IMG/VR virus record: IMGVR_UViG_3300010412_000002
Span: 42,630 to 106,629 of that record
Length of the DNA: 64,000 nt
Direction: 5' to 3' (one strand)
From: a virus
Positions 34,294-63,336 of this stretch are shown here, in pieces. Position 1 is the stretch's first letter, and the number at the start of each line of letters is the position of its first letter. The position numbers were made by a program, and so were the translations under genes. Below the pieces are notes generated by a model. The model made no database searches, was not told the origin of the DNA, and saw only the letters and a program-made list of their open reading frames with translations.

Positions 34294-35118
34294 ATGAATT
34301 ACCAATATATTCCAATAGATGCTGTTCTATATGACTTGTCTTTGGATATTGACCCACCTCATTACAATGAACATAAGTTTCGTGAATGGGCTATTAAAGG
34401 TTATCGGAAGCTGCAATCAAAGGATAAGTATGCTGAGAAGGTGGCACTTATCCAGGTAGAGGACCATAAAGCCCAACTACCTACAGACGTTAAATTCATC
34501 AATCAGATTGCATATAAAGAATACTTAGCATCTGATCAAGATCAGGCGCTACTAGATTTATTGGGCATCGGAGAAACTGAAGCTCAATTTATTAATACTG
34601 AGAGTTGGTTGTCAAAACTAAGCCAATCTACTTCGTGGAAACCTATGCGAAGATCTACTAACTCCTTTATTCATACTGCTAATTTAACATATACTATATT
34701 TCCTAATTTAGATACGATTGAGGATTGTTGTCATGAATATACTGTTGACCAAGGTCTATGCATGACTACTACATTACGTAACGGATATATATGGTTATCA
34801 TATTTAGCATATGCTACTGATGACAAATGCCGCATACTTATTCCAGACGATGAAGATCTAAAGGATGCAATAGGACATTATTGTATGTACCGATTCTGGA
34901 AATCTAAAGTAATTACAGGAGATAGAATGGCAGTAACCGAAAGAGATTGGAACCTTTCCCAGTATCAAACATTACTAGCAAAAGCTGCTGGTAAATTAAA
35001 TATGCCAGATAGTGATGGATTTGAAAACATCAGAACTACCACTACTAGGCTCTTACCACGTACTGATTTTGCTAGGAGCTTCTACTCTAAACTTAACCAA
35101 CAAGAACGACTCCCATGA
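34294..35118 (+). CDS. Tail tubular / adaptor protein (P22 gp4 / T7 gp11-like candidate)
   Basis: 274 residues. The N-terminal helices (PIDAVLYDLSLDIDPPHYNEHKFREWAIKGYRKLQ in pieces: FREWAIKGYRKLQSK) are followed by a beta region (KVALIQVEDHKAQLPTDVKFINQIAY, YTVDQGLCMTTTLRNGYIWLSYLAYAT) and a C-terminal helical part (DAIGHYCMYRFWKSKVITGD, RDWNLSQYQTLLAKAAGKLNMPD). The plan, helices first, then a strand with QLPxDVxxI, then helices with MYRFWxxK, is that of head-completion/tubular adaptors that connect portal and tail. It directly precedes the muzzle gene, with ATGA overlap, as in crAss-like genomes. Confidence 0.6.
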   Translation: MNYQYIPIDAVLYDLSLDIDPPHYNEHKFREWAIKGYRKLQSKDKYAEKVALIQVEDHKAQLPTDVKFINQIAYKEYLASDQDQALLDLLGIGETEAQFINTESWLSKLSQSTSWKPMRRSTNSFIHTANLTYTIFPNLDTIEDCCHEYTVDQGLCMTTTLRNGYIWLSYLAYATDDKCRILIPDDEDLKDAIGHYCMYRFWKSKVITGDRMAVTERDWNLSQYQTLLAKAAGKLNMPDSDGFENIRTTTTRLLPRTDFARSFYSKLNQQERLP

Positions 35119-43233: not shown

Positions 43234-46200
43234 ATGAAGGTAGATGCTTTCACCTACGCACTGATGAACAATATGGATCCGGTAACAGGTGAACCCATTA
43301 AAGGCGGGTTCACTGCCGATCAATTGTATGCTCCACGGCCTGCTCAAGCTATGCCAGGATCTGGTGGCCCCTCTAGTTATATGATGGGATATCGTCCAGG
43401 TATGAACGCTGATTATGTTCGTTCCGCAAACCAGCCTCTCGGTGCATCCTTCCTTAACGGCTTAACTTCAAATATCGTGGTTGGTACCATCGGTAAGATT
43501 GGAGAAGGAGTCGGGATGATTGCTAATATTCCCTCTGCAGTTGCTTCTGGCGACATAGAGAAGCTATTTGATAATTCAATCACTAACTTCTTTGAAAGTA
43601 TTCAAGAAGATGCTAAAGACGCACTACCAGTTTACCAAGGTAGAACATATCAAACTGGAAATATTCTTGCTCGTATGGGCACAGACGACTTCTGGTTTAA
43701 CGATGGATTTGATGCTGTATCATTTCTGTTATCTGCATACGTACCTGGTGGGGCAGTATCTAAAGTATCTAAGTTAGCCAAACTAGGTAAACTTGCTACA
43801 TCAATTAACAACTTGGGCTCTAAAGCAAAGGGCGCTAAGTTAGCCAAACTATTAAAAGAAGTAACTGAAGATCAAGTAGAAAATGCAGTCACACAAGGCG
43901 TTTCAACTGCTTATAACACTATTACCGAAGCTGGATTTGAGGCTAAGGATACATTTGATTCTGTATATCAAGAGTATAAGAAAACTATGTCAGACGAAGA
44001 AGCGAAGAAAAAAGCTTCTCAAGCTGCTGCTAGAGTTTTCACTGCTAACATGTATGGTCTCTTGGTACCTAACGCTATACAGTCTAGCTTTATGCACGGT
44101 AATAATTCTTTTAATCTACGTAAGATTAAGGACGCTGTTCGTAGTGGCAATGGACTTGATGAGATTCTAAATACTAGAGCTAAGATGCTAACTAAACTTG
44201 GCGAAGGTATTGCATCTGAAGGTCTATGGGAAGAAAACTTTCAAAATGCCGTGCAACGATATGAGCGTCGTATGTCTGAAGGATGGGTAGGCGATCGTGC
44301 AGGAGAGTATACATATGGTATGCTCCTAGGTTTAAAAGGTACAGCTAAGGCTTTTATTCCTGGTTTACCTGCTCCAGAAGCTGGCACGGATGAAGATGAA
44401 GCAGCCGCATCAATTGCCCTTGGTGGATTGATTGGTGGTGGTATGGGTATTGGATCTACTATTCTAGAAAATAAGAATCTTAGTAAAGTAATTAAAGGTG
44501 CTGAGGTTGATTGGGCAAGAGTTAAAGATGCTAATAAATTTAGTAAGAATTTACTAGTAGATAACTTATCGGTTAACTTAAAGAGTCATGGCATGGTCGA
44601 TGAAACCGATGCTAATGGTAATCCTACTGGTCGTAAAGTTCCTCAATATGTAGATCCTGATTCAGGTCAAGTATCTATGGATCCACAGAAGATGCAAACT
44701 TTTATGTTGCGTCGAGCTAAGGATATGAATCTTGGAGCAGCACAAGTAGATGCTGTATTAGGTAATAGCCAAAGCTTGATGGACTACAATAGAGAAATGG
44801 CTCTTATGTCCTATGCTTGGCATTTACGGTCAATTCCTAACTTATCAAAAGAAGATATAGACGATCTAATTAAATACGATGTACAACTTCCTGTATCTAG
44901 GGAGTTGGATGGAGTTGTAGATCAGAATTTGCTTTCTCAGAATGTTGATAAGATTCGTGCATACATGCAATTGTATGACGATAGTCTTACGCATACATCT
45001 GGCATGTATGATTTCTCTGACACAAATGTTGACAGGGATTTTGGTGCATATATCCGCAGGGCTTATTTCTATGATGCTGGTAAAAAATTGGCTGCGCAAC
45101 ATATGAAAGAAACTGCATCTGATACTATGCGCCCGCAACTTGATCAGATGATTACAGATATTGATTCTTACTTGGCTCGATTCAGAAATAATATTCCTAA
45201 GTTTCGTCAAGCTTATGACCTTGAAGTAAAGTCTGCAATTGGTCTTGGTAATCGACTTGTTGATATTGAAGAGGCTTTAAAAGTTGAGGGTATTACTGAT
45301 GAGGTTAAGCAAGATCTAGAAGCCGAAAAGAAAGTAATTGAATATCAACTAGAGGAACTTCGAGATGTAGATGGATATTTCTATGATACATTTGGTGGAC
45401 AGCGCGCTACTGAATACGGATCTGCTAGTTTATCTAAGAACGAACCTGCATATCATATGCGCAAACGTGGGGAACAGTTCCGTCCACGTTCAATGGCAGA
45501 AAAGTATTACTACAACAGGGCTTTAACTGATCTATTTAATATTGAAGTATCTAGAGATTTTCAAGACAATGTACCTGTAGAAGAAATTTTTGATAAGGCA
45601 GCTGTACGCCCAGAATTAAGACTCAACAATGCAAATAGAACTGCGTTAAAGGAAGGATTCATTGCAAAGAAAACTGAGGTTGAAAGCAAAAATGATTCCT
45701 TTAATCAAATGAAAGAGTTGCGTGATAATATGCATGCAAGTCTTAATCTTGAATATAATGCAGAACGTCCTGAACTTGTAACTAATGAGGATGAGATGGA
45801 TGAGTATCAAGCTTTCCTAGATGACAATGTTCATGATATGGAAGCTGCAGGTGATCTCCTCTCTGAAGGATTAGGCGAAAATCCATTTACAGAACAGACT
45901 CTACGAGAGAATCCTAATTCTTTTGTGGAATTGTATCGTCGTATGGATAAAGCAATTAAGGACCACGAACTAGCTGTTAAGAAAACACAAGCTGCCCTAG
46001 ACTCTCTTGAAGAACTTTCTAGAGTATCGAATGAACTTGCTGCAGAAAGTGCTATTTACGATAATCTAACTCCTGAGAAGAGGGGCGAAGTATTCAGAGA
46101 TAAATTCTTTGAGCAAAAAACTGCAGGTGTACGTAGTGTTATCGCGCAATTCCGTGCGGACAGAGATGGATTCTCTAGGGGTGTAACAGGGGAAATAAAT

Positions 46201-49200
46201 CTTCTTAACCGTTTACGTAAAATTTTTGCCTCTCGTACCGATATTTCTGATACTTTTAAACAGTCAGTACTAGATCGAATTGATGCTTGGTTAATAGTTT
46301 TAAATCAGGCATCAGAAGTAGCTAGAGGTAATGCTGCCAAACGCTATGAGATTCAACAAATGTCTGAACGATCATATGCTGAAGGACTACATAATCTGTT
46401 TAATAAAGAAGAAATAAAACAATTTCTTATTAATCAGTTTGGACCAGAGATACAAGAGATGTTACGTAAGGTAGCCGAATATGGTGAAAAACCTAATTCA
46501 AAAGAAGGTTACGAGGCTATTCTAGAATTTGTTCGTAGGAAACTTACTACGGAGGAACAACGTACTGCATTTATGCAGAAGTTAATGGAAGAGTCCGACA
46601 AGGATGGGGCTAAAACAAAAGGTATTATTAAGCCTCTAATGTCAGCAAAACTAGGAAGAGAATTCTTTACCTTAGGTGGTCACTATGATAATCCTAACGG
46701 ACTACCTGGCATTATGTTTAGAAATCCATTGATGATTCCACATACGATGTTAATGGATAAAGAAGTATTTGGAGAACGTACTTTAGCGGCGTTTGAAGAA
46801 GGTAAAGAAATTACTCCTTGGCAACGATATAATCTTGATTTCGATTTCCCAAAACTTGTTTATAGTATAAAGGATTCTGGATACGAAGGAATGGATCAAG
46901 CAGAGATCGAAATATTTGATGCACTAGTAGATGCGTATTCTTATGCTAGAGCTTATCATGCTTTGGCTACTATTGCTACTGGTACCACAGATAACATTGA
47001 ATTATACAAGTATGAAGCCCAGGAATTTAATAAACCTGGATCTCATGCCCCCACCAGTCAGCAAGCAGTATCATTCAGAGAAGCTGTAAGACAACTAAAA
47101 AGTCAATTAACTTACCAGCAGTCTGCTGTGTTTGGGATCTATGGCTCAGGTAAAACTGCAATGGTAGCTAGGAAGGTAATGGAATTTTTAATTCCTAATC
47201 CTGATACTCGTAAGGGCAAGGTTCTCGCTTTTGCTCAATCAGAAGCTACATCAAAAACAATTGCAGATTCAGTAAATGGTACCCAAACATCTTTTGATGC
47301 AGTAGCTAATATGACTATTGAACAATTATCTAACTATGAATATGTTGTAGTAGATGAAGCCTTTACGCTTAACTCTAGCCAGATAGAAGTTTTAGATACT
47401 CTTGCTAGACAAAAAATAGTTAAGGTACTATATCTTGGTGACCCATCTCAGAACAAAAGTGAAAGTGTCTCTACTCTACAAGATGGGGTATCTAGAGCAC
47501 AACCTCTTACCGTAGTACTTAGGACTAATAATCCTGCTATTACTAATTTTGCAAATTTCTTTCAATATAATCCAGCAGAAATAGATTCGGCTACAGCAGA
47601 AGCCACCTCTACTCTAGAAGGTAAAACAGAAGCTGATAGTGGCGTATTTGTAACATCTAATAGTCGTCCCGCAGAAGAGCAAATTATTGAAAGAGCAAAG
47701 AATCCAAATGGTAAGTCTAAGATGATTATCTCTAATCATAACCTAGAGACTTACCGACAAGCCTTTGCTGGAACCGATGTAAAGGTTCTGTCTCCTAAGG
47801 ATTCCCAAGGTCAAGAAGCAGATGAAGTATATATTGACCTATCTAAGTCAGGAGAAGCTGTTAACGGTGGGCCATTTGGGTCAGCATTAGCATTTAATAC
47901 TATGGTAGCTACTGCGGCATCACGGGCAAAAGAAATGCTTGTAGTGGCAAATCGACCTGGCCTTGTAATAGACCAAGCAATTATCGCTGATCTTAATGAG
48001 AGCATTCAAGATTTATCTGAAGAGTTTGCTAAGTATGAGCAGGATTATAAAGAATCATTAGATGCTTATAGGGTATTTTATTCTGAATTTACTGGCATAG
48101 CTATTGCGGAAACTCCTCAAGCTCCACCAACTACTCCAACTTCTAACCCCGTTCCAGGACCTGCGGATAATACTGAGCCTACTCCACCACCTCCTGCTCC
48201 ACCTATGGAACCCATGGAAGGTGATGTTAAACTCAAGCATCCACAGAACGATAATCTTATGAAGGTTATGACTGGTACTGGATTTATTGTTAGAACTGTA
48301 AGATCCACTGAAGCAGCTACTAACGAAAAATGGACGGTAATGGCTCCAACTCCTAATGGTAAGTTTAGGACTGTAGGCGTATTGTCTGGAGAAGAGATAG
48401 CTGCAGGCGGGTTTACAGAGGAACAACGAGCTAGAGCAACTTCTCGTAATCAGCTCTTTAAATTAGATACTGATAGAACTCTTGAATACTCAAAGGACCA
48501 GTTCGAGAATTTTATTGTGTCTCCTGTGGAAATTAGAGACGTTAAACCTCTTTGGTTCGAGTTTGGCGAGAACAAGACTACATTAACTGCTGATGGAGTT
48601 CAATGGTTAATGAGAGATTTCTTTCAACAAGAGGGTGTACCTGTACAGGGTAATGTAGATGCAAACATCCGTATTTATCGTCGTCCTAGTGAATTTCCTA
48701 ATACTAGGTTTACGCCCGATATAGGCGTACCTTATATTGTATTATCTGGTTTTCAAGTTCCAGAAGATAGACAATATAGTTTCCCACGAAACTTGCATAT
48801 TCCAATCAGTGCTCCAAAATTAAGTACTGACCATGAAGTATTTAAAACTGCTCAGAAGTTTAAAACTGCTTTTGATACATTTTGTGGTATTGTCAATAAG
48901 GATCCAGTACAGTATTTTAACTCGGAACCTTTTGAGAATTTAATGGATAAATTTAGCAAGTTATATACTGTAGATGTACTTCGTAGAGAAGGAGATCAAA
49001 TTGTTAAAGTAGAAGATTTTGATGAGAAGATACAGGTGCTACTTCGTAACTATCGTTACCCAGAAACAGCTGTAGCTCCACTCTTTGAAATGCTTAAACT
49101 ACTATATGCTCCACATGAATCGCGTCGTAGGTTTACTGCTCAGGAATTAGAAGATTGGAAGCAAGCTAATCCAGAGCAAGCGAAAGACGCAGTTTTTACT

Positions 49201-52200
49201 GAAGTTAAGTTTGGCAAAGCTAAAAGTAATGAAGTTGCCATAGAGGAAGATAAGAAACTTTGGGAAATTACTTATCGTAATTATAATAGAGATGGTACAT
49301 ATGAGATGACTGATGTTACCAAAACTATCTTGGGACAAAGTGCTGGGCCTATGTCTGAAGCTTGGGCAGATCTTGCATCTTCTAATAATGATATTGGAGG
49401 ATATTTCCCTAGAGCTCTGGTTGCGGTTAACCCATCTAATAAAACCATTACTAAGTTTAAACCTAAAAGTTTCTTTGGGTCGAAGCAATCACATGCTAGA
49501 GCTTTTCAATGGATGAAAGATACACTTCGTACTTTTGAACAAACGCTATCTGAGAGCATTAAGCTAATCGAGGAGAATGATCCTTTTAATGCAGATCTCG
49601 AAGCTAACAAAAAGTTACGTACTGCCATTGATAGTATCATTAGATATGACTATGATTCACACGAACTAGAAAAAGTTATTGGGCACCTAGAAATGCTAAC
49701 AGGTACTGGTCCCTATGCTGAAGACGGTCCTGTACACCCTGCTTTCAAAATTTATGAAAAAGATCCTCTAACTGGGGATAAGCGGGAGATTACTCCTAGA
49801 GAAGGTATTCAAGGTATGAGTACTTTTGCAGTACCCTACTCTGCTCTGGAGGCAATTGCTTCTCCTACCAATTATGGATTAGCAGGAGAACATAATTCTC
49901 TTTATCTTAACTTTGATCTGCAGAAAGATGGTACTGTTAGATATGATATGGGCAGTAAAGTAATAAATACTACTACTAATAACGCATTTAACAGCGCTAA
50001 GGTAACAACTAAAGTTAAACGTATTACTCCAACTGCTGTTACTATTAATCTAAGTGGTGCAAGAGCGCAGGCTCAGCAAACACCTGAACAAACAGCACGT
50101 ACTACTCCACAACCAACTCCCGAAACAACTGAGGAATCTGAGCAACTAATTGCTACTCTTGCCCAGATAAGTAACAAAACTCCTGAGCAAATCAGAGATC
50201 AGGTGGTAACTCACTTTGGATCTGCAACTTCTCGCGATGCCATTCGATTCCTAAAGAATACGATTGCTCGTAGAAATATGATGTTTGGTAGTTCAGAAGA
50301 AGACGTAGATGAGTTTAATCAGAAGAAAACTGTATTTGCTGACACAGTTCCTGGTAAACTTCAAACTATCGAATGGGCTAAAGCAACTTTAAAGAAGATC
50401 TTACCCGGCCTTGATATAGATCAGCAGGTTCAATTCCTTGATACTCTGCAAATGTCTATTCTAGAAAAACCAAATGAAGATATTCTAGGGCAGGTACATA
50501 AGGCTATTATGCGTCTAAAGAAAGACGAGAATGGCCGTATTCACGATCAAGTTGTTTACCACGAAGCTTTCCACATGGCCTGGAATTATCTCTTCTCTGA
50601 GAGGCTTAAAACACGTCTACGCGAAGCTTTCAGGGCAGTTTACGGAAGAGAAATGACTGATAAACAAGTTACTGAAGGACTTGCAGAATTGTATCAACGC
50701 TTTGATACTCGCTTTGAAAAGAGAAAAACTTGGGTACGTAAGTTAATTGATGCTGTACGTGGATTCTTTGATACTATGTACAAGCACAAAGAATTTATTA
50801 ATGATGTATTCTTTAACTTGGATGAAGGTAAGTACTCCGGTGCTGTACGTGTTAAAGTAAAAGAAGGTGCACCCGATAACATTTCTTTTATCAAGGATAA
50901 CTTTGGTACTCGTGGTAATTATCTACAGGCCGTACGAAAGATCAAAGATAGGATTGAACACTACAAATTAAATGGTAAGGATAATCTTCCTATGACTCGG
51001 GATGAAATCTTTGAACAGATTTACAGAGAACTCGAGATTGAGATGGAAGACGCGCGCATTGATATGGAAATGCAGCGTAAAGACATTCTTACTGAATTTG
51101 GTGTTAAGAATCTTGGGCAACTTCGAGAAAGATTACTAGGACTTAAGGCGCTTTTAGAGAAGGGAGATCTAAACATTTTTGAAGAACAAAAGGTTGTTGA
51201 TGATATTCTAAAGATCGAACAAGCATTTGTTCCCTATAACTCTGCTAAGAATGCACATATCTTATTTACTACTCTGACAGGAGTGAATAAGCATAGTAAG
51301 AAGTATGTGTTCTATGAAATAGTAGAAAATCTTTATCCTTCTTATAAAGCAGAAGATGCGTATCAGTTTGAACTTGATACCTTAACAGAAGAAGATACAG
51401 CTGAGTTTACTCAAGAAGATGTTGAAGCTCTTGATATTGATGGAGATGCAAGTGTAAGTGAATTACAGGAAGCATTTGAAGGTCTTAAAGCAGAAACAAT
51501 AGATCATGCTAAAGTTAATTGGTCTAGTAAACAAAGTTTGGCACTTAAAGATATCTTTGCTTTCATTCCTCTATTACAAGAAGATTCAAACGAACCTGAG
51601 ATAATTGATGGAATTCGCTCCATGATCCATCCAAAAATTGCCTATGTTAGAGGATTACAACTTTTGTTGCAACTAGATCTTAATGGGTCTAATTTGCTTG
51701 ACCAAATTGTATACCTACAAAAGCATGAGGAACTCAATCGTTGGGATAGATCAATTCTACATGCAATCACTGAGTTATTTGGTAAGCTTGCTGATATTGA
51801 AGAACGTCATGACTCATATAGTATAGTTGCTAAATCATACCCACTAGACAGCAGAGTAGAGTATTACTTCTTCAATGATCGTAGAGGAGGAACAGATGCG
51901 CATGCCACTACTTATGAAGATGCAAAAGAACTAGTAGCTAAAGATCCAGAACGTTATAAGCTTGTATCTGCTGGGGATAAAACTCTATCTTCTTTATACG
52001 CAAAGGCAGTAGAAGAAATTCCTAGTTTAACGAGGGAAGAATTCTCAAATATCTTCTATAATCGCGAAGCTATTAACTCTATTGCTAACTTACAATCTTT
52101 CATGGGATCTCTTAAAGATACCACATATAAGATGAGTATTAAGAGTACTAGAGGAAAGACTAGAACACTAAGTATGGTAGATGCACGTGGAGGAGATTCA

Positions 52201-55200: not shown

Positions 55201-58200
55201 AAAGAATACGCAAAATTAGCAGGACTAGCCTGGCTAGAAAAGAAAACAGTTAGACCTACTATTTCAGAGTATGATCGCAGCCTATCCCCAGATCCTAAAG
55301 TAATTCTCAACTCTAGAAGATGGCAAATTGCTTCTGCAGATACTTATGCACTCTTTGATGTTAAACGTCAAATCTATAACTTAAGTAAAGATTCAGATGT
55401 ACTAGATGTATTTCCAGCTATCCAGAATCTTGTTACAGAATTGTTTACAAGCATTCAAAAGGAGAAGCTAGCCCCCGCTGAGACTTTTATTAAGAAAGGC
55501 GAAATCATAGGATTTAAATTAGGAGAGGATGGTATATACAGATTTGATCCCGAATTCGATACAGAATTATCTAATAAAATTAGAGAAGTAAAACTTCTTG
55601 CAGATCAAGCAAAAGAATTTAAACTTTCTAAACTTTATAGCATTCTTAATCGTCAATATAAAGATCTACTAGGAGTTAAAGAAGAATACTATAAGGGAGC
55701 TATTATTGATACCTTCTTGGAAACCATTTCTGATGCTGAAAGAAATGAATTGCGTATGATGCGTCCTATCTCAAAATCTTTCCTTGTAGGTAAGAAAGCA
55801 GGTAGTAAAACTGAATACGCAGAAGATTCTGCAATCTATTCGGTAGCCAAACATGGACTCGTAAACAAAGAAGATGTAGACCTTTCTAACTATAACGATG
55901 TTTATACTGCCTTTAAGTCTGTTGCTGATATGCAACGACTCACTGGGATCTTTGCGAGCTCAATTAAAGTACTTGCATATATTGGTCGTTCTGGTGTAAG
56001 TGAAGGTACAGAAAAACTTATTGTTAATCTTAATAAGAAAGTCAACAAGTTAGAAAAATTTGTTAACTCTCTCAGTGAATCGGCTACTCCCACACAACTT
56101 GCGCAAGTAGCTGAAATGCAAGAAGAGATTCGTCTTGCTCAGGCAAATCTAAAAGATGTACTGAAAATTGAACGCAGAGAACAGATCGGTAATTCTGCAC
56201 CACGTATTGCAACTAATTTGAGATTTAACTACACAGTTAACGGAGAAGTTCATCATATTGCTAGTATGAATGAGTTCGTTCTCGGTACTAATCAGAATGT
56301 TTCTATATATGATGTGTTAGATGCTCTTGTTAATATCGCTATTGATAATATCAAGGATCAGGAGTTGTTTGCGCTGCAGGCAACAGCTGAGACAGGTACC
56401 ATATATTCTGCGCTTATATCCCTTGGATTGCCTACTGGTGATATCATTGCAATGATGTATCATCCTAGCATGCAAGATTTGCTAGGAATGAATCGCAATG
56501 ATTCTAAAATGCGCCTAGAGAATATGTTGCCAGAATACCTATCCAAAGTAGGTGAATATATTGAAAGTCAATTTGGTCCTCTAGATACTCTGTTGGACGG
56601 TAAGACTATTGGTATTACTGAGTTAGATGAAATGCTAACTAGTGATAAATTTAAAGCTCTTAAAACAGTCTTTACTGAAGATCGTAAACGTCAAATTAAG
56701 TATATTGAGAACTTAGACCAGCTTGATCAACGAGAAGCTTTAATGCTGTATCAATATATGCATATCATGAATACTGGTAAGAAGCTAGGAGATGATATCT
56801 CTACTCTTTCTAAATTCATGGGTATTCTTAGAGGCATGCCGATTAGTTTCGAAGGTATTCAAACCATTGAACAGGCGATTGAGAAGCTAGGTGCGATTAT
56901 TCAAAATGCTGAAGATAGCAAAGAATTAGACTCAATTGACAAACTTACTATGATGGAGGCTTCCGAAGAGCTAAAGACTCTGGGAAGTGTTATGTATACT
57001 AAAAAGAAAGAATCTGGATATAAGATAGCTGGTTTCATGTCTAGAAACCCCCACATCCTTGCAGCGTATAGAAGACTTCTTCAACTTAAAGCTACTATTC
57101 AAAAGAACTTCCCACTATATAGTGAGAAGGTAGTAAGCTTCATGAAAGATCTGTTTGGTAAAGATACTAAGTTAGGTGGTATTGAAGAACAAGGTATACT
57201 AAGAAAAGAACTTAGAAAGTACTTACTTACTCAACTTATTGATAGAGATTTCTATAAAGAGAAATATTACACTACTTACGCATCTAGAAAAACAGGAAAG
57301 TCAAATCGTATAGAACTCTATGGAGTAGACGCTTGGAGTGAAAGATTTATTGATTCTGTTCGTAGAGTTAAGGAGTACGATCAACTACTGGCTAAACAAC
57401 AGAATAGGGCACCAAACGCCTTCTTAGATGCCTTGTATATGGAGAGTGGTAAGCTTCGTTTCAACTTTGATGTTGAGATGGATCGTGCTATGATTGAAGA
57501 ACTGCGACAAGGATTTAAACAACTTCGCTATTTTACTTTTAAAGATGGTTATAAGCAATATAATCCTAAGCAGCCTGGTAATGTAGAACTTTCTTTAAAC
57601 AAAGATCCAAAAACTCTAAGTGATTTTGATCTAGAATATAATGCAACGGAGTTCCAAAAAGATTTCTTGTTTTATCTAGCTCTTGTAGATGGACTTAGAT
57701 TTGCTAACAACAACTATTCGGTAGCAGTTACACCCAGAATTGTCCGTGTACTCACTGATAAGTTAGATGACATGGAGAAGAAGTTTAGAGATGATGCTGA
57801 GTTTAGAGACAAACTAGCTTATCACATTAAGATTGAACTTCTCCGAGAAAACGCAGGACTTGTTTCTACCTACATTAATCAAGATGATAATGAAAATTAT
57901 CTTATTCGATCAGAAAGAACTGAAGGAGATGAAGAACTAAAAGATGAACAAGGTAAGACTGTTGAGCAACCACTAAATGGTGTTGCTACGATTAACGGTA
58001 GACGTATCTTTTATGATAAGGCTTATAATAATCCATATGAAACAACTTCTGAAAGAGAAACCAAGGAAGATGAACTAGACCGCAGATTTCCTGCTTTTAT
58101 TTCTTCTGGATATGATAGTAATGCACAAGTATATATGCGTATTACTAGTCCTACTGATGATGTAATTGCTTATACTTCTGTTGGTAGAGCTTCTGAAACA

Positions 58201-61200
58201 TACACCCGTATTCCTGACATTTCTAAAATGGAAGATGTTAAACAGAACTTTGAACCAACAGTACCTACTCAATATGTTGCAGACGTATCTCAGAATACTA
58301 TGCAAACGTATAAAAACTTTGACTATCTATTACCAGGAGAACCTATTCGACTTGTTGGCTTTGCAGACAAGAGTCGTCTTGCTCCTCGTTACGTAGTTAT
58401 TAAAAACGTAGAAAAGATTTATGAGAAGTTTGGCGTTAAAGAGGAAGTACATTTTCGAGGATATAAGTATACATTTGAAGATTACGTAGTTCCTAGTACT
58501 TTTAGGCAAATTACTGATTTGGCAGATGTTACTCCAGGTACAGCTATGACTTCTTTAGATCTGGTAAACAGTCTTCTAAATACTACAACTATTACAGATT
58601 ATGAGCGAAGTGTCCTGGAATCCTTCCAAGCTAAATATACTAAGGAGGGACGTAAGAATACTCCGATAGTATTATTTATAGATAAATTACCAGAAGGGTC
58701 AGGAGCACAGTACAATGTGGGATTTGGTTATGTAAATATAAAAGCAAATAAAGTAATTGCACGAGAGATAATACATGAATTAACTCATGCAGAAACTCAT
58801 ATGTTAATAGTTGCAGATTACCTAGCAACTGAACCTATGACAGGATTAGCTTTGAGATTAACCAATCCAGAATTTAGAAATGTAGAAGCAGAGTTTTCAA
58901 CTAAGTATAATTTCGAACTAACCACATTTACAACAGAACTTACTAATCTGCAGGTAGAAGCCGCTAAAGCATATAGAGCTCAATTTAATAGTGGACTTGA
59001 GAGTGACGATGAATTCTCTGCCTTCGTAGAGGATTATCATAGTGACTTACTTATACATGAAGGCATACCTTATGGCTTATCTGATCCACACGAAATGCTA
59101 GCAGAGTTTGTTTCTAATGAGCAGTTTAGGGAGTTAACCAAGCTAATTAAAATTACTCCGAAAGAAACATTGTATGATCGAATTATAAATCTCATCTCAC
59201 GTTTTATTCTTGGTAAGCAACAAATTAGTTTATATGATGTCTTAGATGGGCTAATGCGCGAAGGTGTGTTTAATAATATGTATATTCGTACTGAATCATT
59301 ACGAAATACTAGAGGTGATTATAAAATTATTTATACTAGTCAACGAGAAAAATTAAATCTTTTTACTCCACCTACAGATATAGAAGTTGATGAATTTATT
59401 AAGTGGATGAACTCAGTAGGCTATCAATTACCTATAGAAAAATTATCAGACGCAAGCCCAGAGTTTAAAGATATACTAATGAATAGAATAGAGGTAAGTC
59501 ATAACCGATATGGTACAGATGCTCGGATGGACGCAGACAAACAAACAGCTGCACAGTATTCTGTAAATCCAAATAACGAAGCAAAGTACCAGAAAGTTAA
59601 TGCCCCTGGTCTAGATCTTGCACGTGTGTCGGATGATATTGAAGGTTGGATGAGCTTCTTTAAACGTAACCCAAAATCTACTACGACTATTGAGGAGAAA
59701 GCAGATCGCATCTGGGGAAATATTGATCCTATGACTCAGAAGTTTACTCGACATGGATGGATCAATCGTCCAGATTGGGTAGCTAAAGAGGCTGAGATAG
59801 AAGCCCGAGGTAAAAACCGCGGACGATTGGTGCACTCACTTATGGAATTGTATTCTAAGACAGAAGCAGATCCAGAGTTGGAAGCTAGAATTGAGCAATT
59901 GCTGGATATAACTGGTTATGACAGGGAAAAATTTAAATGGGTTCAACAGAAGTTAGATTCTATTTATCGTAACGCTGACATTAATACCAGAGACGATGTA
60001 GATCCAGACCAAAAGGATAAGATAGGTAGTGAGGTAACAGTTGCCAACGACATCTTAGGCTTAGCTGGTACAATTGACATGCTAATTTATCACGCAGATG
60101 GTACTTTAGGCATCAAAGATATCAAAGCTGGTTATTCATTATTTAATAGTTCTACTACGGATATCATGATGTTTGGTGAGCAGCCTAGTGCTCCAGACCT
60201 AATCTATGATACATGGTTTAATCATGCAAAGCTTCAAGTAATGACGTATGCTTTCTTATACAAATCTACTCATCCTGAAGCTAAGTTTAAAGATTTAGAT
60301 GTATTGTGGATGCCAGATAAAGATTCTGTAGATGAGAATACTTTCAGAAATATGGTTAACCCTGAGCCGTATCTTAACATGATTCATTTGATGCTTAAGG
60401 AAAAGATGCCAGAGAAATACCAAGCTCTTAAAGATTCTATGTCTGCAGAAGATTGGAAGAAACTTTGGGATCCTAAAGAATATAAAGCAGGGGTAGGAAA
60501 ATCACTTAGAGATGCGCATACAGTTAGTCCAGATCTTCCTATTGACCAACAAATTAAAGCTAAAATTGAGAAAATTAGGACTATCATACTTACTGATCTT
60601 AATCCTAACACTTATTCAAAGGCCATATTCACTGGGAAAGACGCAGAAAGAAAAACAAAATTAGTTTCAAAACTGATGAAGGAAGTTTTGGAATTGCAGA
60701 AACAAGCTACTGATCTTGATATACAGACTGTAAATGAAGATATCAGCGGGTTCCAAAACTGGTTATTTACTTCTGCTACTACCAGTAATCCTTATATTCA
60801 AGTGTGGGATGAGTTATTCATGGCACGTAGAGATGAATTTAATAAGCAATACGAGCAGTATAGGAATAAATTCTTGTCACTTCTTGATCCTATTAAGAAT
60901 GATTACTTACGACGTCATCCAGGTAAAGCAACATTAGATGCATTAACTAGAGGAGGAGCTAATCATATTAGTTCTAGAGATTTATTTAGCTTTGCATATA
61001 TTCCTGTAAAAGATGAAGGAGGTGATGTAATAGATTATCAACTTCGTCATACAGATGCACATTTCCAAGAACTGATTGATGACAATACTAACTTTGGGCA
61101 TATCAATGCTACTAATATTCATATCTATAAGAACTTCTTAAACTTTGTGAATGATAGTTATGCAAGATTCTTTGTAGATCAGAACGGAACTAAAGCTCTA

Positions 61201-63273
61201 GCCAATAGAACTGCTACTTATTATAAAGGTAAAGGAGCTATTGACAAACCAATTAGTAATATTGAACTGTACAATGGTAAACGTGCTAAATTACATAAAG
61301 AGAATCTAAATAGGGATAAAGAATTATTTGAATACAAACGAGGATTTATGCCTAAGGTTCCACCTCTGTTATCAGAGTTTGGGTTATTAACCAAAGGAGC
61401 TAAACTAGAAGGATCTAAGCAGGCTTCTGCACAAAATTGGTGGAAGACTTGGTACCATAGAAACTTGACTTTCTCAGAAGAACATGCGTTTGAAGGCTTC
61501 GATAAGAAAGCTATGGCAGAAGGACTACCTATGAAGTACCTAAATAATAAACGAGACTTTGCTAGCAATCCTGATCTGTTTTCTTTAAATCTTGAACATC
61601 AATTTGATAGATTTATGAGAGCCTATCTGTGGAAGGAACAAATGGATGATGTATTTGCATATGGACAAGGCATCCGCATAATGCTCAATGCTCAGAAGGA
61701 TAATGTTCCTGACAGAACAATTGAGTTTATGAAGAGAGAACTTGATCTCAAGCTCCGAGGGAGACCTGCTGGGTATGGCAAGAGTGAGAAGTTTATTTCA
61801 AAGAATAGATATAATGTTAGTTTGATTAAAGTACTTTCTAAGATTAAGTATTTATCTGGATTTCCTCTTATGGGTCTTAACTATATAGGAGGTACAGCTA
61901 ACGCTATCTTTACTGGTCTACTTACTTTAAAGCACGCTGCACAAAATCAATCGTTTAAAGGAAAAAGCTTAGATGGATTGAATGGTAGTGAATGGGATTT
62001 CGGACTTAAAGATTTAGCAAAGGCTTGGCCAGAAGTACTAAAGATTATGAAAGCTGGTATGGTAGATGGCAATGTACGAAACTCTAAAGCCTATTTAATG
62101 GCTAAGAAGTTTGGTTACTTCCCAAATAGCTTCGACTGGTCTACTGCTCATAACAACTTAATCACAGATGGTAACAGAGTGTTTAATTCTGAATCAATGT
62201 TCTTATTCTATTCTCTACCTGAAGAAATGATCGCTTTAACTATCATGACTGCACAGTTAATGAGTATGAAAGTTAAAACAGGTCCCTTTGCAGGACAATC
62301 AGTATGGGATCTATACGAAATGGTAGATATAACTGATGAGAATGGTAATACTTACAAGGAAATTAAGTGGAAAGAAGATCCTAACACAGGTAAAGCATAT
62401 GTGCGGGCTGTTGTTAATGTCTCTGCAGATCCTAATAATCCTGAGTATCAAGAACTTACGGAATTAGATGGCAAAGAAGTTAGACGTCTATACAACGCAT
62501 ATGATAGGATGCACGGTGGTTATCGCAAGATAGATAACACAATGTTTCAAAATACGATCTGGGGAACTCTTGCTATTCACTTACGTAGATTCCTACCACA
62601 CGTTTTACGTCAGGCTTTAACTTCTGCTGGCAAGCGTTCCGCAATGGGCTTTTATAAAGTAACTGGAGCGTTAGAAGACGGAACCGAAACGGTAGAATGG
62701 GTATCCAAAGTAATGGAAGGACGTTGGGCTGTTACAGGAAAGATCCTACTTAGACTCTTGGCAAAAGTTGCAAATATAGATAATATTCCTAAAGATGCTG
62801 AAGGATTTGCAGGTATGCTAAGAAGGAAATTAGGTAATCTTGAGATGTACGACATGGATAAACTAGATGCAGGACAATTAGAGGCATTTAGAGATGCATG
62901 GGTAACTTTAATGATACTAGCGGTTGGTATGACCATACCATTCTTTATGGGTGGAGATGGGGATGACGATGATCCAATGAATAGATTTGTTACTAGAATC
63001 TTCAATGATTTAACACAGATGTATAATATCTATGAACTTGGTAAAAACGTAGTTACATGGAATCCTGTATCACTTAATAAGTTACATGACTTCCAAGCCG
63101 ATACTGCTAAAGTACTATTTTCACTAATGTTCTGGGCAGCAGGAGATGAAGAAAAAGCATTTACACCTGATGGTCGATTAGAAGGATTAAATCGACTAAT
63201 GAAAGACTTACCTGTTACATCAATGATTCGAAAAACAGAAGACTTTATGACCTCAGATATCTTCAATGAATAA
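43234..63273 (+). CDS. Giant multi-enzyme virion protein with RNA polymerase core (6,679 residues)
   Basis: One uninterrupted frame of 20,040 bases. In order: an N-terminal virion-type region with hydrophobic stretches (SIALGGLIGGGMGIGST near 393-409); long helices; an SF1 helicase core (1270-1580); a proline-rich linker (about 1627-1668); a second linker rich in Q, T and P (2274-2306); zincin motif HEAFH (2443-2447); an RNA-polymerase core with two barrel regions and DFDVD at 3879-3883; a second zincin motif HELTH (5181-5185); a RecB-like PD-(D/E)XK nuclease (5530-5675); and a C-terminal membrane segment (about 6555-6573). crAss-like phages package a large single-chain RNA polymerase; here it appears fused with other enzymes into about 0.75 MDa. 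It is probably injected and transcribes early genes. Cleavage into parts is possible. A strong terminator follows. Confidence 0.85.
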   Translation: MKVDAFTYALMNNMDPVTGEPIKGGFTADQLYAPRPAQAMPGSGGPSSYMMGYRPGMNADYVRSANQPLGASFLNGLTSNIVVGTIGKIGEGVGMIANIPSAVASGDIEKLFDNSITNFFESIQEDAKDALPVYQGRTYQTGNILARMGTDDFWFNDGFDAVSFLLSAYVPGGAVSKVSKLAKLGKLATSINNLGSKAKGAKLAKLLKEVTEDQVENAVTQGVSTAYNTITEAGFEAKDTFDSVYQEYKKTMSDEEAKKKASQAAARVFTANMYGLLVPNAIQSSFMHGNNSFNLRKIKDAVRSGNGLDEILNTRAKMLTKLGEGIASEGLWEENFQNAVQRYERRMSEGWVGDRAGEYTYGMLLGLKGTAKAFIPGLPAPEAGTDEDEAAASIALGGLIGGGMGIGSTILENKNLSKVIKGAEVDWARVKDANKFSKNLLVDNLSVNLKSHGMVDETDANGNPTGRKVPQYVDPDSGQVSMDPQKMQTFMLRRAKDMNLGAAQVDAVLGNSQSLMDYNREMALMSYAWHLRSIPNLSKEDIDDLIKYDVQLPVSRELDGVVDQNLLSQNVDKIRAYMQLYDDSLTHTSGMYDFSDTNVDRDFGAYIRRAYFYDAGKKLAAQHMKETASDTMRPQLDQMITDIDSYLARFRNNIPKFRQAYDLEVKSAIGLGNRLVDIEEALKVEGITDEVKQDLEAEKKVIEYQLEELRDVDGYFYDTFGGQRATEYGSASLSKNEPAYHMRKRGEQFRPRSMAEKYYYNRALTDLFNIEVSRDFQDNVPVEEIFDKAAVRPELRLNNANRTALKEGFIAKKTEVESKNDSFNQMKELRDNMHASLNLEYNAERPELVTNEDEMDEYQAFLDDNVHDMEAAGDLLSEGLGENPFTEQTLRENPNSFVELYRRMDKAIKDHELAVKKTQAALDSLEELSRVSNELAAESAIYDNLTPEKRGEVFRDKFFEQKTAGVRSVIAQFRADRDGFSRGVTGEINLLNRLRKIFASRTDISDTFKQSVLDRIDAWLIVLNQASEVARGNAAKRYEIQQMSERSYAEGLHNLFNKEEIKQFLINQFGPEIQEMLRKVAEYGEKPNSKEGYEAILEFVRRKLTTEEQRTAFMQKLMEESDKDGAKTKGIIKPLMSAKLGREFFTLGGHYDNPNGLPGIMFRNPLMIPHTMLMDKEVFGERTLAAFEEGKEITPWQRYNLDFDFPKLVYSIKDSGYEGMDQAEIEIFDALVDAYSYARAYHALATIATGTTDNIELYKYEAQEFNKPGSHAPTSQQAVSFREAVRQLKSQLTYQQSAVFGIYGSGKTAMVARKVMEFLIPNPDTRKGKVLAFAQSEATSKTIADSVNGTQTSFDAVANMTIEQLSNYEYVVVDEAFTLNSSQIEVLDTLARQKIVKVLYLGDPSQNKSESVSTLQDGVSRAQPLTVVLRTNNPAITNFANFFQYNPAEIDSATAEATSTLEGKTEADSGVFVTSNSRPAEEQIIERAKNPNGKSKMIISNHNLETYRQAFAGTDVKVLSPKDSQGQEADEVYIDLSKSGEAVNGGPFGSALAFNTMVATAASRAKEMLVVANRPGLVIDQAIIADLNESIQDLSEEFAKYEQDYKESLDAYRVFYSEFTGIAIAETPQAPPTTPTSNPVPGPADNTEPTPPPPAPPMEPMEGDVKLKHPQNDNLMKVMTGTGFIVRTVRSTEAATNEKWTVMAPTPNGKFRTVGVLSGEEIAAGGFTEEQRARATSRNQLFKLDTDRTLEYSKDQFENFIVSPVEIRDVKPLWFEFGENKTTLTADGVQWLMRDFFQQEGVPVQGNVDANIRIYRRPSEFPNTRFTPDIGVPYIVLSGFQVPEDRQYSFPRNLHIPISAPKLSTDHEVFKTAQKFKTAFDTFCGIVNKDPVQYFNSEPFENLMDKFSKLYTVDVLRREGDQIVKVEDFDEKIQVLLRNYRYPETAVAPLFEMLKLLYAPHESRRRFTAQELEDWKQANPEQAKDAVFTEVKFGKAKSNEVAIEEDKKLWEITYRNYNRDGTYEMTDVTKTILGQSAGPMSEAWADLASSNNDIGGYFPRALVAVNPSNKTITKFKPKSFFGSKQSHARAFQWMKDTLRTFEQTLSESIKLIEENDPFNADLEANKKLRTAIDSIIRYDYDSHELEKVIGHLEMLTGTGPYAEDGPVHPAFKIYEKDPLTGDKREITPREGIQGMSTFAVPYSALEAIASPTNYGLAGEHNSLYLNFDLQKDGTVRYDMGSKVINTTTNNAFNSAKVTTKVKRITPTAVTINLSGARAQAQQTPEQTARTTPQPTPETTEESEQLIATLAQISNKTPEQIRDQVVTHFGSATSRDAIRFLKNTIARRNMMFGSSEEDVDEFNQKKTVFADTVPGKLQTIEWAKATLKKILPGLDIDQQVQFLDTLQMSILEKPNEDILGQVHKAIMRLKKDENGRIHDQVVYHEAFHMAWNYLFSERLKTRLREAFRAVYGREMTDKQVTEGLAELYQRFDTRFEKRKTWVRKLIDAVRGFFDTMYKHKEFINDVFFNLDEGKYSGAVRVKVKEGAPDNISFIKDNFGTRGNYLQAVRKIKDRIEHYKLNGKDNLPMTRDEIFEQIYRELEIEMEDARIDMEMQRKDILTEFGVKNLGQLRERLLGLKALLEKGDLNIFEEQKVVDDILKIEQAFVPYNSAKNAHILFTTLTGVNKHSKKYVFYEIVENLYPSYKAEDAYQFELDTLTEEDTAEFTQEDVEALDIDGDASVSELQEAFEGLKAETIDHAKVNWSSKQSLALKDIFAFIPLLQEDSNEPEIIDGIRSMIHPKIAYVRGLQLLLQLDLNGSNLLDQIVYLQKHEELNRWDRSILHAITELFGKLADIEERHDSYSIVAKSYPLDSRVEYYFFNDRRGGTDAHATTYEDAKELVAKDPERYKLVSAGDKTLSSLYAKAVEEIPSLTREEFSNIFYNREAINSIANLQSFMGSLKDTTYKMSIKSTRGKTRTLSMVDARGGDSHVNTRSVLKEAIRAAANNTTTPLFQKSREISSIIGQLESNIEDARIAGIKELLSLLGLKDNYPIINSKLLTRNAKSISSFLKTILAVGELPTHTVVTYASGREELDERYDIDAWLLKNNSALTALSKVVAEENKIPKSTMITSVKKQRIYKHTLSNPIYNITQKIINVQERLLKGVDPESSLVKLPEYLELQSNKNPFLMKKGNGFMSRIYSLFELDGHKDRFGSGRENGSEVLAFDKKKLHTTLFSSGFLSNLEGGVYQQLFYQQADKPRPIGATISILNSKEIKEFIPILEENIKFFMDEDRANRFRIHSKSYSTSNLVNGTLLEKAMKHPKGFEQGFKELIAEEAFKLANDLIEARVDTVGTEAQATGLVDKFDTSEMLQLLNTVLDKRGIAPIKSISQLAERSVDSTGKYVNTVEMLMPYAYAYLMNHYINSYFMNQLVAGSSQFYGSGGTVLKRMTGAAGPGHIGWTHPRFGTKSTFKVIVVGDESTTADQMFDHVKAALSGKYTEEEIAALRHFFGNESTDRTDGQVFITPARLRDLQKGYGREFRLSNILKPKYFGPRIEELVYGEGADQTRERVSIPTYIKPSAVVLSDELLYQPGTKTPRPGMEKLASIRQAMERDGIDELAFGSAVKVGNPKEKHSLDEFIANPSQKGIMNLSSEHYGIQLNPRAKVDSSAALFTQLTYFLNIYSSSEDKNNIARAEAVYSAIAFLFEKGGKLFERDTDNFKTLLQKAFSEKSDELVFADLIEAGIQPNSPIFEQKALIKLASLMEKLAIKIRLPGGKLVLQSDVGVNNPQTGQPLKFTKENGKLVAEVIVPRGLFPEDLAKRIEAGDTLFENPTLLGFRIPSTELHSAVAMKVVGFYDNEANTNMVIAPELLVALHGSDFDVDSLFFAKRPIAKQDVKASSKASINALFDIAVKLDELVENDAFKGHPASHKIYDALNKIRKNFGSNDNKLTTDDYNDISSPRALVEIEQDFLKFAQQYRLDPTSIGARKEYAKLAGLAWLEKKTVRPTISEYDRSLSPDPKVILNSRRWQIASADTYALFDVKRQIYNLSKDSDVLDVFPAIQNLVTELFTSIQKEKLAPAETFIKKGEIIGFKLGEDGIYRFDPEFDTELSNKIREVKLLADQAKEFKLSKLYSILNRQYKDLLGVKEEYYKGAIIDTFLETISDAERNELRMMRPISKSFLVGKKAGSKTEYAEDSAIYSVAKHGLVNKEDVDLSNYNDVYTAFKSVADMQRLTGIFASSIKVLAYIGRSGVSEGTEKLIVNLNKKVNKLEKFVNSLSESATPTQLAQVAEMQEEIRLAQANLKDVLKIERREQIGNSAPRIATNLRFNYTVNGEVHHIASMNEFVLGTNQNVSIYDVLDALVNIAIDNIKDQELFALQATAETGTIYSALISLGLPTGDIIAMMYHPSMQDLLGMNRNDSKMRLENMLPEYLSKVGEYIESQFGPLDTLLDGKTIGITELDEMLTSDKFKALKTVFTEDRKRQIKYIENLDQLDQREALMLYQYMHIMNTGKKLGDDISTLSKFMGILRGMPISFEGIQTIEQAIEKLGAIIQNAEDSKELDSIDKLTMMEASEELKTLGSVMYTKKKESGYKIAGFMSRNPHILAAYRRLLQLKATIQKNFPLYSEKVVSFMKDLFGKDTKLGGIEEQGILRKELRKYLLTQLIDRDFYKEKYYTTYASRKTGKSNRIELYGVDAWSERFIDSVRRVKEYDQLLAKQQNRAPNAFLDALYMESGKLRFNFDVEMDRAMIEELRQGFKQLRYFTFKDGYKQYNPKQPGNVELSLNKDPKTLSDFDLEYNATEFQKDFLFYLALVDGLRFANNNYSVAVTPRIVRVLTDKLDDMEKKFRDDAEFRDKLAYHIKIELLRENAGLVSTYINQDDNENYLIRSERTEGDEELKDEQGKTVEQPLNGVATINGRRIFYDKAYNNPYETTSERETKEDELDRRFPAFISSGYDSNAQVYMRITSPTDDVIAYTSVGRASETYTRIPDISKMEDVKQNFEPTVPTQYVADVSQNTMQTYKNFDYLLPGEPIRLVGFADKSRLAPRYVVIKNVEKIYEKFGVKEEVHFRGYKYTFEDYVVPSTFRQITDLADVTPGTAMTSLDLVNSLLNTTTITDYERSVLESFQAKYTKEGRKNTPIVLFIDKLPEGSGAQYNVGFGYVNIKANKVIAREIIHELTHAETHMLIVADYLATEPMTGLALRLTNPEFRNVEAEFSTKYNFELTTFTTELTNLQVEAAKAYRAQFNSGLESDDEFSAFVEDYHSDLLIHEGIPYGLSDPHEMLAEFVSNEQFRELTKLIKITPKETLYDRIINLISRFILGKQQISLYDVLDGLMREGVFNNMYIRTESLRNTRGDYKIIYTSQREKLNLFTPPTDIEVDEFIKWMNSVGYQLPIEKLSDASPEFKDILMNRIEVSHNRYGTDARMDADKQTAAQYSVNPNNEAKYQKVNAPGLDLARVSDDIEGWMSFFKRNPKSTTTIEEKADRIWGNIDPMTQKFTRHGWINRPDWVAKEAEIEARGKNRGRLVHSLMELYSKTEADPELEARIEQLLDITGYDREKFKWVQQKLDSIYRNADINTRDDVDPDQKDKIGSEVTVANDILGLAGTIDMLIYHADGTLGIKDIKAGYSLFNSSTTDIMMFGEQPSAPDLIYDTWFNHAKLQVMTYAFLYKSTHPEAKFKDLDVLWMPDKDSVDENTFRNMVNPEPYLNMIHLMLKEKMPEKYQALKDSMSAEDWKKLWDPKEYKAGVGKSLRDAHTVSPDLPIDQQIKAKIEKIRTIILTDLNPNTYSKAIFTGKDAERKTKLVSKLMKEVLELQKQATDLDIQTVNEDISGFQNWLFTSATTSNPYIQVWDELFMARRDEFNKQYEQYRNKFLSLLDPIKNDYLRRHPGKATLDALTRGGANHISSRDLFSFAYIPVKDEGGDVIDYQLRHTDAHFQELIDDNTNFGHINATNIHIYKNFLNFVNDSYARFFVDQNGTKALANRTATYYKGKGAIDKPISNIELYNGKRAKLHKENLNRDKELFEYKRGFMPKVPPLLSEFGLLTKGAKLEGSKQASAQNWWKTWYHRNLTFSEEHAFEGFDKKAMAEGLPMKYLNNKRDFASNPDLFSLNLEHQFDRFMRAYLWKEQMDDVFAYGQGIRIMLNAQKDNVPDRTIEFMKRELDLKLRGRPAGYGKSEKFISKNRYNVSLIKVLSKIKYLSGFPLMGLNYIGGTANAIFTGLLTLKHAAQNQSFKGKSLDGLNGSEWDFGLKDLAKAWPEVLKIMKAGMVDGNVRNSKAYLMAKKFGYFPNSFDWSTAHNNLITDGNRVFNSESMFLFYSLPEEMIALTIMTAQLMSMKVKTGPFAGQSVWDLYEMVDITDENGNTYKEIKWKEDPNTGKAYVRAVVNVSADPNNPEYQELTELDGKEVRRLYNAYDRMHGGYRKIDNTMFQNTIWGTLAIHLRRFLPHVLRQALTSAGKRSAMGFYKVTGALEDGTETVEWVSKVMEGRWAVTGKILLRLLAKVANIDNIPKDAEGFAGMLRRKLGNLEMYDMDKLDAGQLEAFRDAWVTLMILAVGMTIPFFMGGDGDDDDPMNRFVTRIFNDLTQMYNIYELGKNVVTWNPVSLNKLHDFQADTAKVLFSLMFWAAGDEEKAFTPDGRLEGLNRLMKDLPVTSMIRKTEDFMTSDIFNE
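47041..47973 (+). other. SF1 helicase core inside the giant protein
   Basis: Residues about 1270-1580. Visible motifs: LTYQQSAVFGIYGSGKT with Walker A G1304-S-G-K1307-T, Walker B VVVDEAF (D1374, E1375), motif III YLGDPSQ (1400-1406), motif V-like KDSQGQEADEVYIDLS (about 1523-1536) and motif VI VATAASRAKEML with R1564. The order and the GDPxQ motif indicate superfamily 1, of the RecD/Upf1 kind. It may unwind or translocate along injected DNA or displace transcripts during early transcription. It is followed by a flexible proline-rich linker. Confidence 0.85.
50161..50793 (+). other. First zincin metallopeptidase-like domain in the giant protein
   Basis: Residues about 2310-2520. The zinc motif is H2443-E-A-F-H2447 in VVYHEAFHMAWNY, and a likely third ligand is E2481 or E2485 in TEGLAELYQRF, about 35 residues later, a spacing usual for gluzincin-like phage domains. 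It lies just after a low-complexity linker and before the polymerase part. It could release the polymerase part from the chain or act on host proteins. Catalysis is inferred from the motif. Confidence 0.7.
53701..54933 (+). other. RNA polymerase catalytic core (two double-psi beta-barrel regions)
   Basis: Residues about 3490-3900. The first barrel region shows TDRTDGQVFITPARL (3515-3529), K3578 in TYIKPSAVV and K3626 in FGSAVKVG, a lysine pattern as in beta-type barrels of QDE-1/crAss-like polymerases. The second shows ENPTLLGFRIPSTELHSA, alignable with the PTLHRxGIQAF piece of cellular beta-prime, and then HGSDFDVDSLFF with D3879, D3881 and D3883, the metal-binding DxDxD. Cellular enzymes have DFDGD, so glycine is replaced by valine here. 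The spacing from the PTL motif to the aspartates is as in beta-prime. Confidence 0.8.
58681..59133 (+). other. Second zincin metallopeptidase-like domain in the giant protein
   Basis: Residues about 5150-5300. H5181-E-L-T-H5185 occurs in AREIIHELTHAETHM after a strand-rich lead (GFGYVNIKANKV). About 100 residues later SDPHEMLAEFVSNEQF offers E5287 or E5291 as third zinc ligand. This HELTH...EMLAEFVSN arrangement is common in polyvalent proteins of phages and mobile elements. It lies between the polymerase part and the nuclease. Confidence 0.7.
59731..60303 (+). other. RecB-like PD-(D/E)XK nuclease domain in the giant protein
   Basis: Residues about 5500-5690 contain the full RecB/Cas4-type motif series: H5534 in RGRLVHSLMEL, E5600 in IGSEVTVAND, D5615 in LAGTIDMLIY, D5629-x-K5631 in LGIKDIKAGYS, and Q5668-x3-Y5672 in KLQVMTYAFLY. 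Spacing and hydrophobic contexts are typical, so an active deoxyribonuclease is likely. It may process host DNA or DNA ends after injection. Confidence 0.85.
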
Positions 63274-63301: not shown

Positions 63302-63336
63302 AGGGGAGACTGTCTTACGACGGCCTCCCCTTTTTT
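63302..63336. terminator. Bidirectional intrinsic terminator
   Basis: A hairpin with outer stem AGGGGAG/CTCCCCT, one mismatch, inner stem CTGTC/GACGG and a TTAC loop lies 28 bases after the giant gene. It is followed by TTTTTT on the + strand and preceded by nine A (63291-63299), which give a T-tract on the minus strand. It can thus end both the long + strand run and the minus-strand genes that approach from the right. Confidence 0.85.

Follow-up and report, generated by a model that had tools for sequence, protein, structure and literature searches.

Transcription blocks of crAss-like phages were described in 2021 as "several large, multidomain proteins," some of them with PDDEXK domains, and inteins and TGA/TAG recoding are also on record (PMC7886860). 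For a 2023 review, RNA polymerase (RNAP) genes of "up to ∼6000 aa" are one hallmark of these phages (PMC10136315). Virions of crAss001 (Kehishuvirus) carry gp47, gp49, and gp50 as cargo (PMC10172136); a zincin-like domain with the motif HEAFH occurs in gp47, the RNAP in gp50, and a C-terminal module in gp49, with gp47 encoded on the strand opposite to the other two. In Cellulophaga phage phi14:2, the adjacent genes gp67 (1,421 aa), gp66 (2,180 aa; the virion RNAP of solved structure, 6VR4), and gp65 (1,797 aa) encode products annotated as virion proteins by mass spectrometry. Partial fusions are also found: the "DNA helicase" proteins of cr118_1 and cr50_1 (Suoliviridae; 4,946 and 4,774 aa) join a zincin (HEAFH), an RNAP, and a P-loop helicase, the first of these being the longest partial fusion among the named genomes examined, and cr271_1 carries its polymerase in a long fusion of 4,620 aa. 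Flavobacterium phage Fpv3 has two genes, gp32 (4,287 aa; RNAP motif GLDYDID, followed by HExxH) and gp33 (1,596 aa).

Two further injected polymerases are analogous giant single chains with metallopeptidase-like motifs. The virion RNAP (vRNAP) of coliphage N4 (gp50, 3,500 aa) is a T7-type single-subunit RNAP and not a two-barrel enzyme. This vRNAP is an ejection protein with an HExxH C1 domain (PMC12633501), and gp96 of Thermus phage P23-45 (5,002 aa), an RNAP fused with a metallopeptidase domain, is found full-sized in virions (PMC10770324).

The window analyzed here is a 64,000-nucleotide stretch (positions 42,630 to 106,629) of IMG/VR record IMGVR_UViG_3300010412_000002, a contig of 106,629 bp (G000). 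A single open frame on the plus strand, from the ATG at 43234 to the TAA ending at 63273, comprises 6,679 codons (757 kDa) and 18.8% of the contig. At the base composition of the window, one would expect a stop per ∼14 codons, which puts the probability of 6,679 open codons at ∼10^-220; the remaining five frames contain 269–946 stops each across the gene. The codon-position G+C order 1>2>3 is held in nearly all 1-kb steps, and because this order stays constant there is no hint of a hidden frame change. The contig start and end share an identical 144 bp, so that the contig is probably complete, the repeat being probably the mark of a circular-type assembly. The stop-free frame of 20,040 bases reported in an earlier note, made from the DNA letters alone, is thus borne out by the open reading frame, its constant phase, and the collinear relatives described below. 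Reassignment of TGA was considered for this phage and is unsupported: 10 of the 36 window genes checked stop at TGA, and the giant gene stops at TAA. The 64-kb window contained no tRNA, and the giant-gene region gave no match to any Rfam family. The features of the window, with the catalytic motifs of the giant chain, are listed in Table 1.

Table 1. Features of the window (coordinates in window numbering; res, residues of the giant protein; values are E-values unless stated otherwise).
Feature	Coordinates	Strand	Basis
crAss-like major capsid protein	10742..12214	+	Pfam Crass_capsid 3.5e-72
crAss tail ring protein 2	33167..33865	+	Pfam CrAss_Ring_2 3.1e-28
crAss tail ring protein 1	34294..35118	+	Pfam CrAss_Ring_1 1.5e-31
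732-aa gene upstream, without family match	39131..41329	+	position of cargo/tail genes, synteny only
632-aa gene immediately 5' of the giant gene	41329..43227	+	position of crAss001 cargo protein genes, synteny only
N-terminal module, res 1-650, homolog of phi14:2 virion protein gp67	43234..45183	+	profile 5.6e-32
SF1 helicase, res 1190-1620, P-loop GIYGSGKT at 1301	46801..48093	+	Pfam AAA_30 4.8e-10, Viral_helicase1 2.7e-6
Pro/Thr-rich linker past the helicase, res ~1621-1665	48094..48230	+	composition
Gln/Pro/Thr-rich linker, res ~2268-2310; gene border (junction J1) in some relatives	50035..50163	+	composition, relatives
Zincin-like domain 1, res 2300-2600, HEAFH at 2443, EGLAE downstream	50131..51033	+	profile matches to crAss001 gp47 and cr50_1
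Two-barrel RNAP core, res ~3390-4330, DFDVD at 3879-3883	53401..56223	+	profiles, alignment, AlphaFold/Foldseek
Zincin-like domain 2, res ~5120-5310, HELTH at 5181, HEMLAE at ~5286	58591..59163	+	phi14:2 gp65, 9e-12
PD-(D/E)XK (RecB/Cas4-like) nuclease, res 5480-5890, GTIDxLI..DIK at ~5613-5632	59671..60903	+	Pfam PDDEXK_1 1e-7; phrog_298 exonuclease 4.8e-14
C-terminal module, res 5950-6679; hydrophobic stretch res 6555-6573	61081..63270	+	homology to C-termini of phi14:2 gp65 and crAss001 gp49
Terminator-like hairpin, then T run, directly 3' of the giant gene's stop	63302..63336	+	fold -19.9 kcal/mol, z -4.1
Direct terminal repeat, 144 bp, shared with contig start	63857..64000		sequence identity

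By its gene content, the window phage is assigned to the crAss-like phages (broadly defined order Crassvirales), an identity the earlier note had already given it and to which the capsid and ring protein matches attest. The ring protein genes are found near the transcription block, as in crAss-like phages. The window genes are on the plus strand, and PolA, a DnaB-like helicase, and an AAA ATPase are on the minus strand elsewhere in the contig, so that the structural and transcription block and the replication genes are on opposite strands, in the crAss-like layout. The closest named phage by capsid protein is Fpv3, at 30%, and a quick tree built from RNAP cores places the window in an 18-member metagenomic clade without a named phage (support 99). 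A search among plasmids was negative. Additional genes of the window include a GroEL-like chaperonin (2386–4017; Cpn60_TCP1, 1.4e-64), which Cellulophaga phage phi38:1 also has, and a gene (17689–19269) whose product has cadherin-like and Big_9 (bacterial Ig-like) domains and is perhaps a virion fiber or decoration protein.

Both profile searches and structure modeling support the polymerase of the giant protein. Against the whole PDB, the RNAP profile has a sole match, 6VR4 (phi14:2 gp66; 2.4e-43), which was missed in a PDB search with the single sequence. The AlphaFold model of this region is of moderate confidence (mean pLDDT 68), and Foldseek places 6VR4 first with it, as the sole significant match (2.4e-17, probability 1.00), followed by QDE-1 and then by weak matches to PhiKZ/AR9 polymerases. 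Around GSDFDVD, the window protein aligns with the core of phi14:2 gp66 and with those of seven RNAP proteins from named phages; D3879, D3881, and D3883, together with K3547 and K3578, are invariant in 18 alignment rows, and we infer that the two lysines are the catalytic pair of the second barrel. The giant protein is therefore predicted, by homology, to hold a two-barrel RNAP of the phi14:2 gp66 type. This agrees with the virion-type two-barrel polymerase of the earlier note, which had named profile searches and a structure model of the barrels as checks; both were run and supported the barrels, and the contrary outcome, a failure of the profiles, did not occur.

When the giant protein was compared with Pfam and PHROGs, the SF1 helicase near residue ∼1300 and the nuclease near ∼5600 were found, with no other convincing match. 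Helicase motifs I, II, III, and VI are intact, their signatures (G..GKT, DE, DP.Q, and R) varying little or not at all across 11 rows, and the region has PIF1-like matches in the PDB. In the nuclease, the catalytic residues are invariant, and both the H..GxxD..DxK..Q motif and the fold are present: in the second structure model, the nuclease part leads Foldseek to Cas4-family proteins, EXO5, and AdnAB (probabilities up to 0.99, E-values of 5e-3 and weaker). The claim of an SF1 helicase and a RecB-like nuclease is thus upheld by Pfam, PHROGs, the motifs, and the nuclease model. Profiles were needed for such comparisons, as tblastn with single-sequence helicase or nuclease regions against named phages gave no match. 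In relatives (L018:2459-3307, also L019, L111, and L121), an intein (Intein_splicing 8.5e-12, HNH_3 5e-6) splits the helicase Walker A motif in the giant gene.

Two further domains have an HExxH motif and a conserved downstream candidate for the third ligand. In zincin 1, the H-E-H residues are invariant and the downstream E residues (E-E..A) near-invariant in 15 rows, and its profile matches crAss001 gp47 (6.6e-13) and cr50_1 (2e-14); no credible solved relative was found by sequence, and comparison with Pfam peptidases gave scattered weak matches only. In zincin 2, H-E-H and one downstream E are invariant in eight rows. Its structure model is of low confidence, and its profile matches podophage ejection proteins in the PDB (8vb2, which is PhiM1 gp48; 9sfn; and 23sg gp10; 5.5e-5 to 2.5e-4), with HExxH and a downstream [HK]E aligned. 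Neither domain has a Pfam peptidase match above cut-off. The conserved HExxH motifs and the homology support both domains as zincin-like, and to this extent the two zincins of the earlier note are retained. In two relatives (L015 and L021), the lone zincin is of the zincin-2 type, sits at the place of zincin 1, and the second is missing; zincins therefore appear to move or be replaced within the chain.

The equivalence of the remaining modules was assessed with profiles from the window's clade, slid along the giant protein against the phi14:2 and crAss001 proteins. Residues 2300–2700 match the zincin part of crAss001 gp47 (6.6e-13), residues 3330 onward match phi14:2 gp66 (4e-27) and crAss001 gp50 (4e-26), residues 5157–5300 match the zincin part of phi14:2 gp65 (9e-12), and residues 6200–6650 match the C-termini of phi14:2 gp65 (2.7e-9) and crAss001 gp49 (6e-8). 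The order of the adjacent genes gp67, gp66, and gp65 in phi14:2 is that of the modules of the giant chain; given these ordered matches, the giant protein corresponds to gp67, gp66, and gp65 end to end, plus a helicase and a nuclease. The helicase is inserted within the gp67-like portion, whereas the PD-(D/E)XK nuclease sits within the gp65-like one. Profiles of the N- and C-terminal modules matched no solved protein, and the C-terminal module had no match in PHROGs. Where this last module stands alone in relatives (L021:13665, L026:13056, L034:13092), it tends to have a Cys soon after the start Met, as do phi14:2 gp65 and crAss001 gp49. Overall, motif positions, profiles, and structure models bear out the earlier observation that one chain carries the motifs of at least five enzyme types.

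Compared with the described systems, the window protein is like the phi14:2 trio in module order and in its two-barrel RNAP with GSDFD[IV]D, with the difference that one gene takes the place of three; the window's helicase and nuclease profiles found no match in phi14:2 gp65-gp67 or in crAss001 gp47, gp49, and gp50. The three crAss001 genes likewise hold between them the zincin-like domain, RNAP, and C-terminal module that the window unites in one. In cr118_1 and cr50_1, the helicase follows the RNAP, whereas it precedes it in the window, and the last module is separate (1,667 and 1,386 aa). Fpv3 shares the order of RNAP motif and HExxH, but in a two-gene arrangement. P23-45 gp96 is also a giant single chain with a two-barrel RNAP and a metallopeptidase domain; it differs in its fusion to a siphovirus tape-measure protein, its clampless RNAP, and an RNAP lineage unlike that of the window. 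The N4 vRNAP resembles the window protein by working alike, although the polymerases are not homologous. Giant polymerases are thus already known in crAss-like phages, and the new element is a fusion of the whole block in this arrangement, which several wild phages share in conserved form; no description of it was found in a search of mainly open-access literature. The earlier statement that crAss polymerases, where described, measure ∼2,000 residues or consist of separate proteins has been overtaken by fusions of 4,620–4,946 aa and by the reviewed figure of up to ∼6000 aa, and to call the chain "one of the largest phage proteins imaginable" goes too far, as relatives reach 6,393–6,506 aa.

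Scans of viral sequences with one protein or an exact motif gave no relatives. These were retrieved with an RNAP-core alignment, which yielded 80 IMG/VR and 16 genome-contig loci. A new search of 39 records gave open frames of 6,681 codons for the window and of 6,506, 6,393 (twice), 6,161, 6,078, 6,047, and 5,981 codons for others, and four relatives have all modules in the window's order in one chain (L111, 6,393 codons; L113, 6,161; L114, 6,047; L115, 5,981). The closest relative in the RNAP tree (G001; L117/L118) encodes 6,035 aa with one zincin if its four in-frame TGA codons are read as Trp; at two of these codons the window protein has Trp. In all, at least five related metagenomic phages have the block in one chain of ∼6,000–6,400 residues. 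Sparse in-frame TGA codons occur in the giant gene of L117/L118, L025, and L035, consistent with TGA as Trp in G001; the stretches examined of the TGA-bearing relatives contained no tRNA gene.

Other members of the clade are split. In L120, L119, L122, L026, L027, and L022 the break follows the RNAP part, in L123 it precedes zincin 1, and L031 and L033 have both breaks. The breaks in split relatives are at the same two junctions (J1 and J2), adjacent frames overlap or abut in most of them, and the fusion state switches several times along the RNAP quick tree. Chains of other layouts were also observed. One is a 6,070-aa frame on a separate tree branch (L112; G026), with NADAR, DUF1848, and a C-terminal UvrD/PIF1-like helicase, in which the NADAR domain suggests possible ADP-ribose or anti-defense chemistry on board; the other is a 6,505-aa frame on a MAG contig labeled Neisseriaceae (L116; G036), which has DUF7831 as well as a nuclease-like motif ahead of the RNAP. 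Given these chains of >6,000 aa, giant size probably had more than one origin.

We consider it likely that the giant gene encodes, in a single chain, the machine that this crAss-like phage packages in its virion for early transcription; the chain is made up of gp67, gp66, and gp65 equivalents with a helicase and a nuclease. Packaging of the chain is supported by the presence of its homologs in virions, and the "self-contained injected machine" of the earlier note is plausible by homology with the virion proteins of phi14:2 and crAss001. The chain would be packed in the head and ejected via the tail, at least partly unfolded, ahead of the DNA, and would then refold in the host and transcribe early genes. 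The helicase and nuclease may act on host DNA or on the DNA as it enters; the zincins may serve in ejection or envelope passage or may act on proteins. Fusion would set a 1:1 stoichiometry and the order of ejection.

A possible, if doubtful, alternative is that the chain is mainly an ejection or DNA-delivery motor resembling T7 gp16, in which transcription by the RNAP would draw the DNA into the cell and the zincin region would be a member of the ejectosome family. This overlaps with the early-transcription machine, laying the stress on delivery over transcription. The aligned key residues in the zincin 2 match to podophage ejection proteins favor such a motor, as do the HExxH C1 domain of the N4 vRNAP, itself an ejection protein (PMC12633501), and the coupling of vRNAP to DNA translocation already proposed for P23-45, crAss-like, and N4-like phages (PMC10770324). 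However, the ejection-protein match is weak (E ∼1e-4) and concerns one domain only, and the terminal modules match no solved protein.

The main rival to an intact chain is a polyprotein: its own zincins, or some other protease, would cleave it at both junctions no later than packaging, and the resulting gp67-, gp66-, and gp65-like parts would form a three-protein machine as in crAss001. The HExxH domains lie directly past J1 and directly past J2, linkers rich in Pro, Thr, and Gln are found near J1 and past the helicase, and the parts are separate genes in relatives. Yet the junction sequences are free to differ in both length and composition, and no site in them is conserved; zincin 1 is kept in split-gene relatives and is therefore not there only for processing a fusion; and P23-45 gp96 is full-sized in virions (PMC10770324). 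We regard such processing as unlikely. Were the chain to stay uncleaved, it could even be an integrated ejectosome-plus-polymerase that serves envelope passage, DNA handling, and early transcription, with crAss blocks, the N4 vRNAP, and T7/PhiM1-type ejection proteins as one design around a shared zincin-bearing ejection module, although we hold this broader idea to be quite improbable. An assembly or sequencing artefact that fused two or three adjacent genes is largely refuted and has a negligible likelihood: although the sequence comes from a metagenomic contig and the genes are separate in named relatives, an error is unlikely to erase the stops at two junctions and keep phase, collinear single frames of 5,981–6,393 codons recur in independent contigs at ∼25% identity, the codon phase is constant, and the contig is closed by its terminal repeat.

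For the crAss-like phages, these observations mean that the three-gene virion transcription block can exist as one chain of 6,000–6,700 residues, with motifs intact in several wild phages. The zincin of crAss virions is now linked to zincin-like regions of podophage ejection proteins. Because one conserved chain is split at the same two joints in close relatives, a 1:1:1 stoichiometry and co-ejection of the three parts is a natural hypothesis, and the fused forms may offer a handle on the passage of a huge cargo through a narrow tail and on the coupling of transcription to DNA entry.
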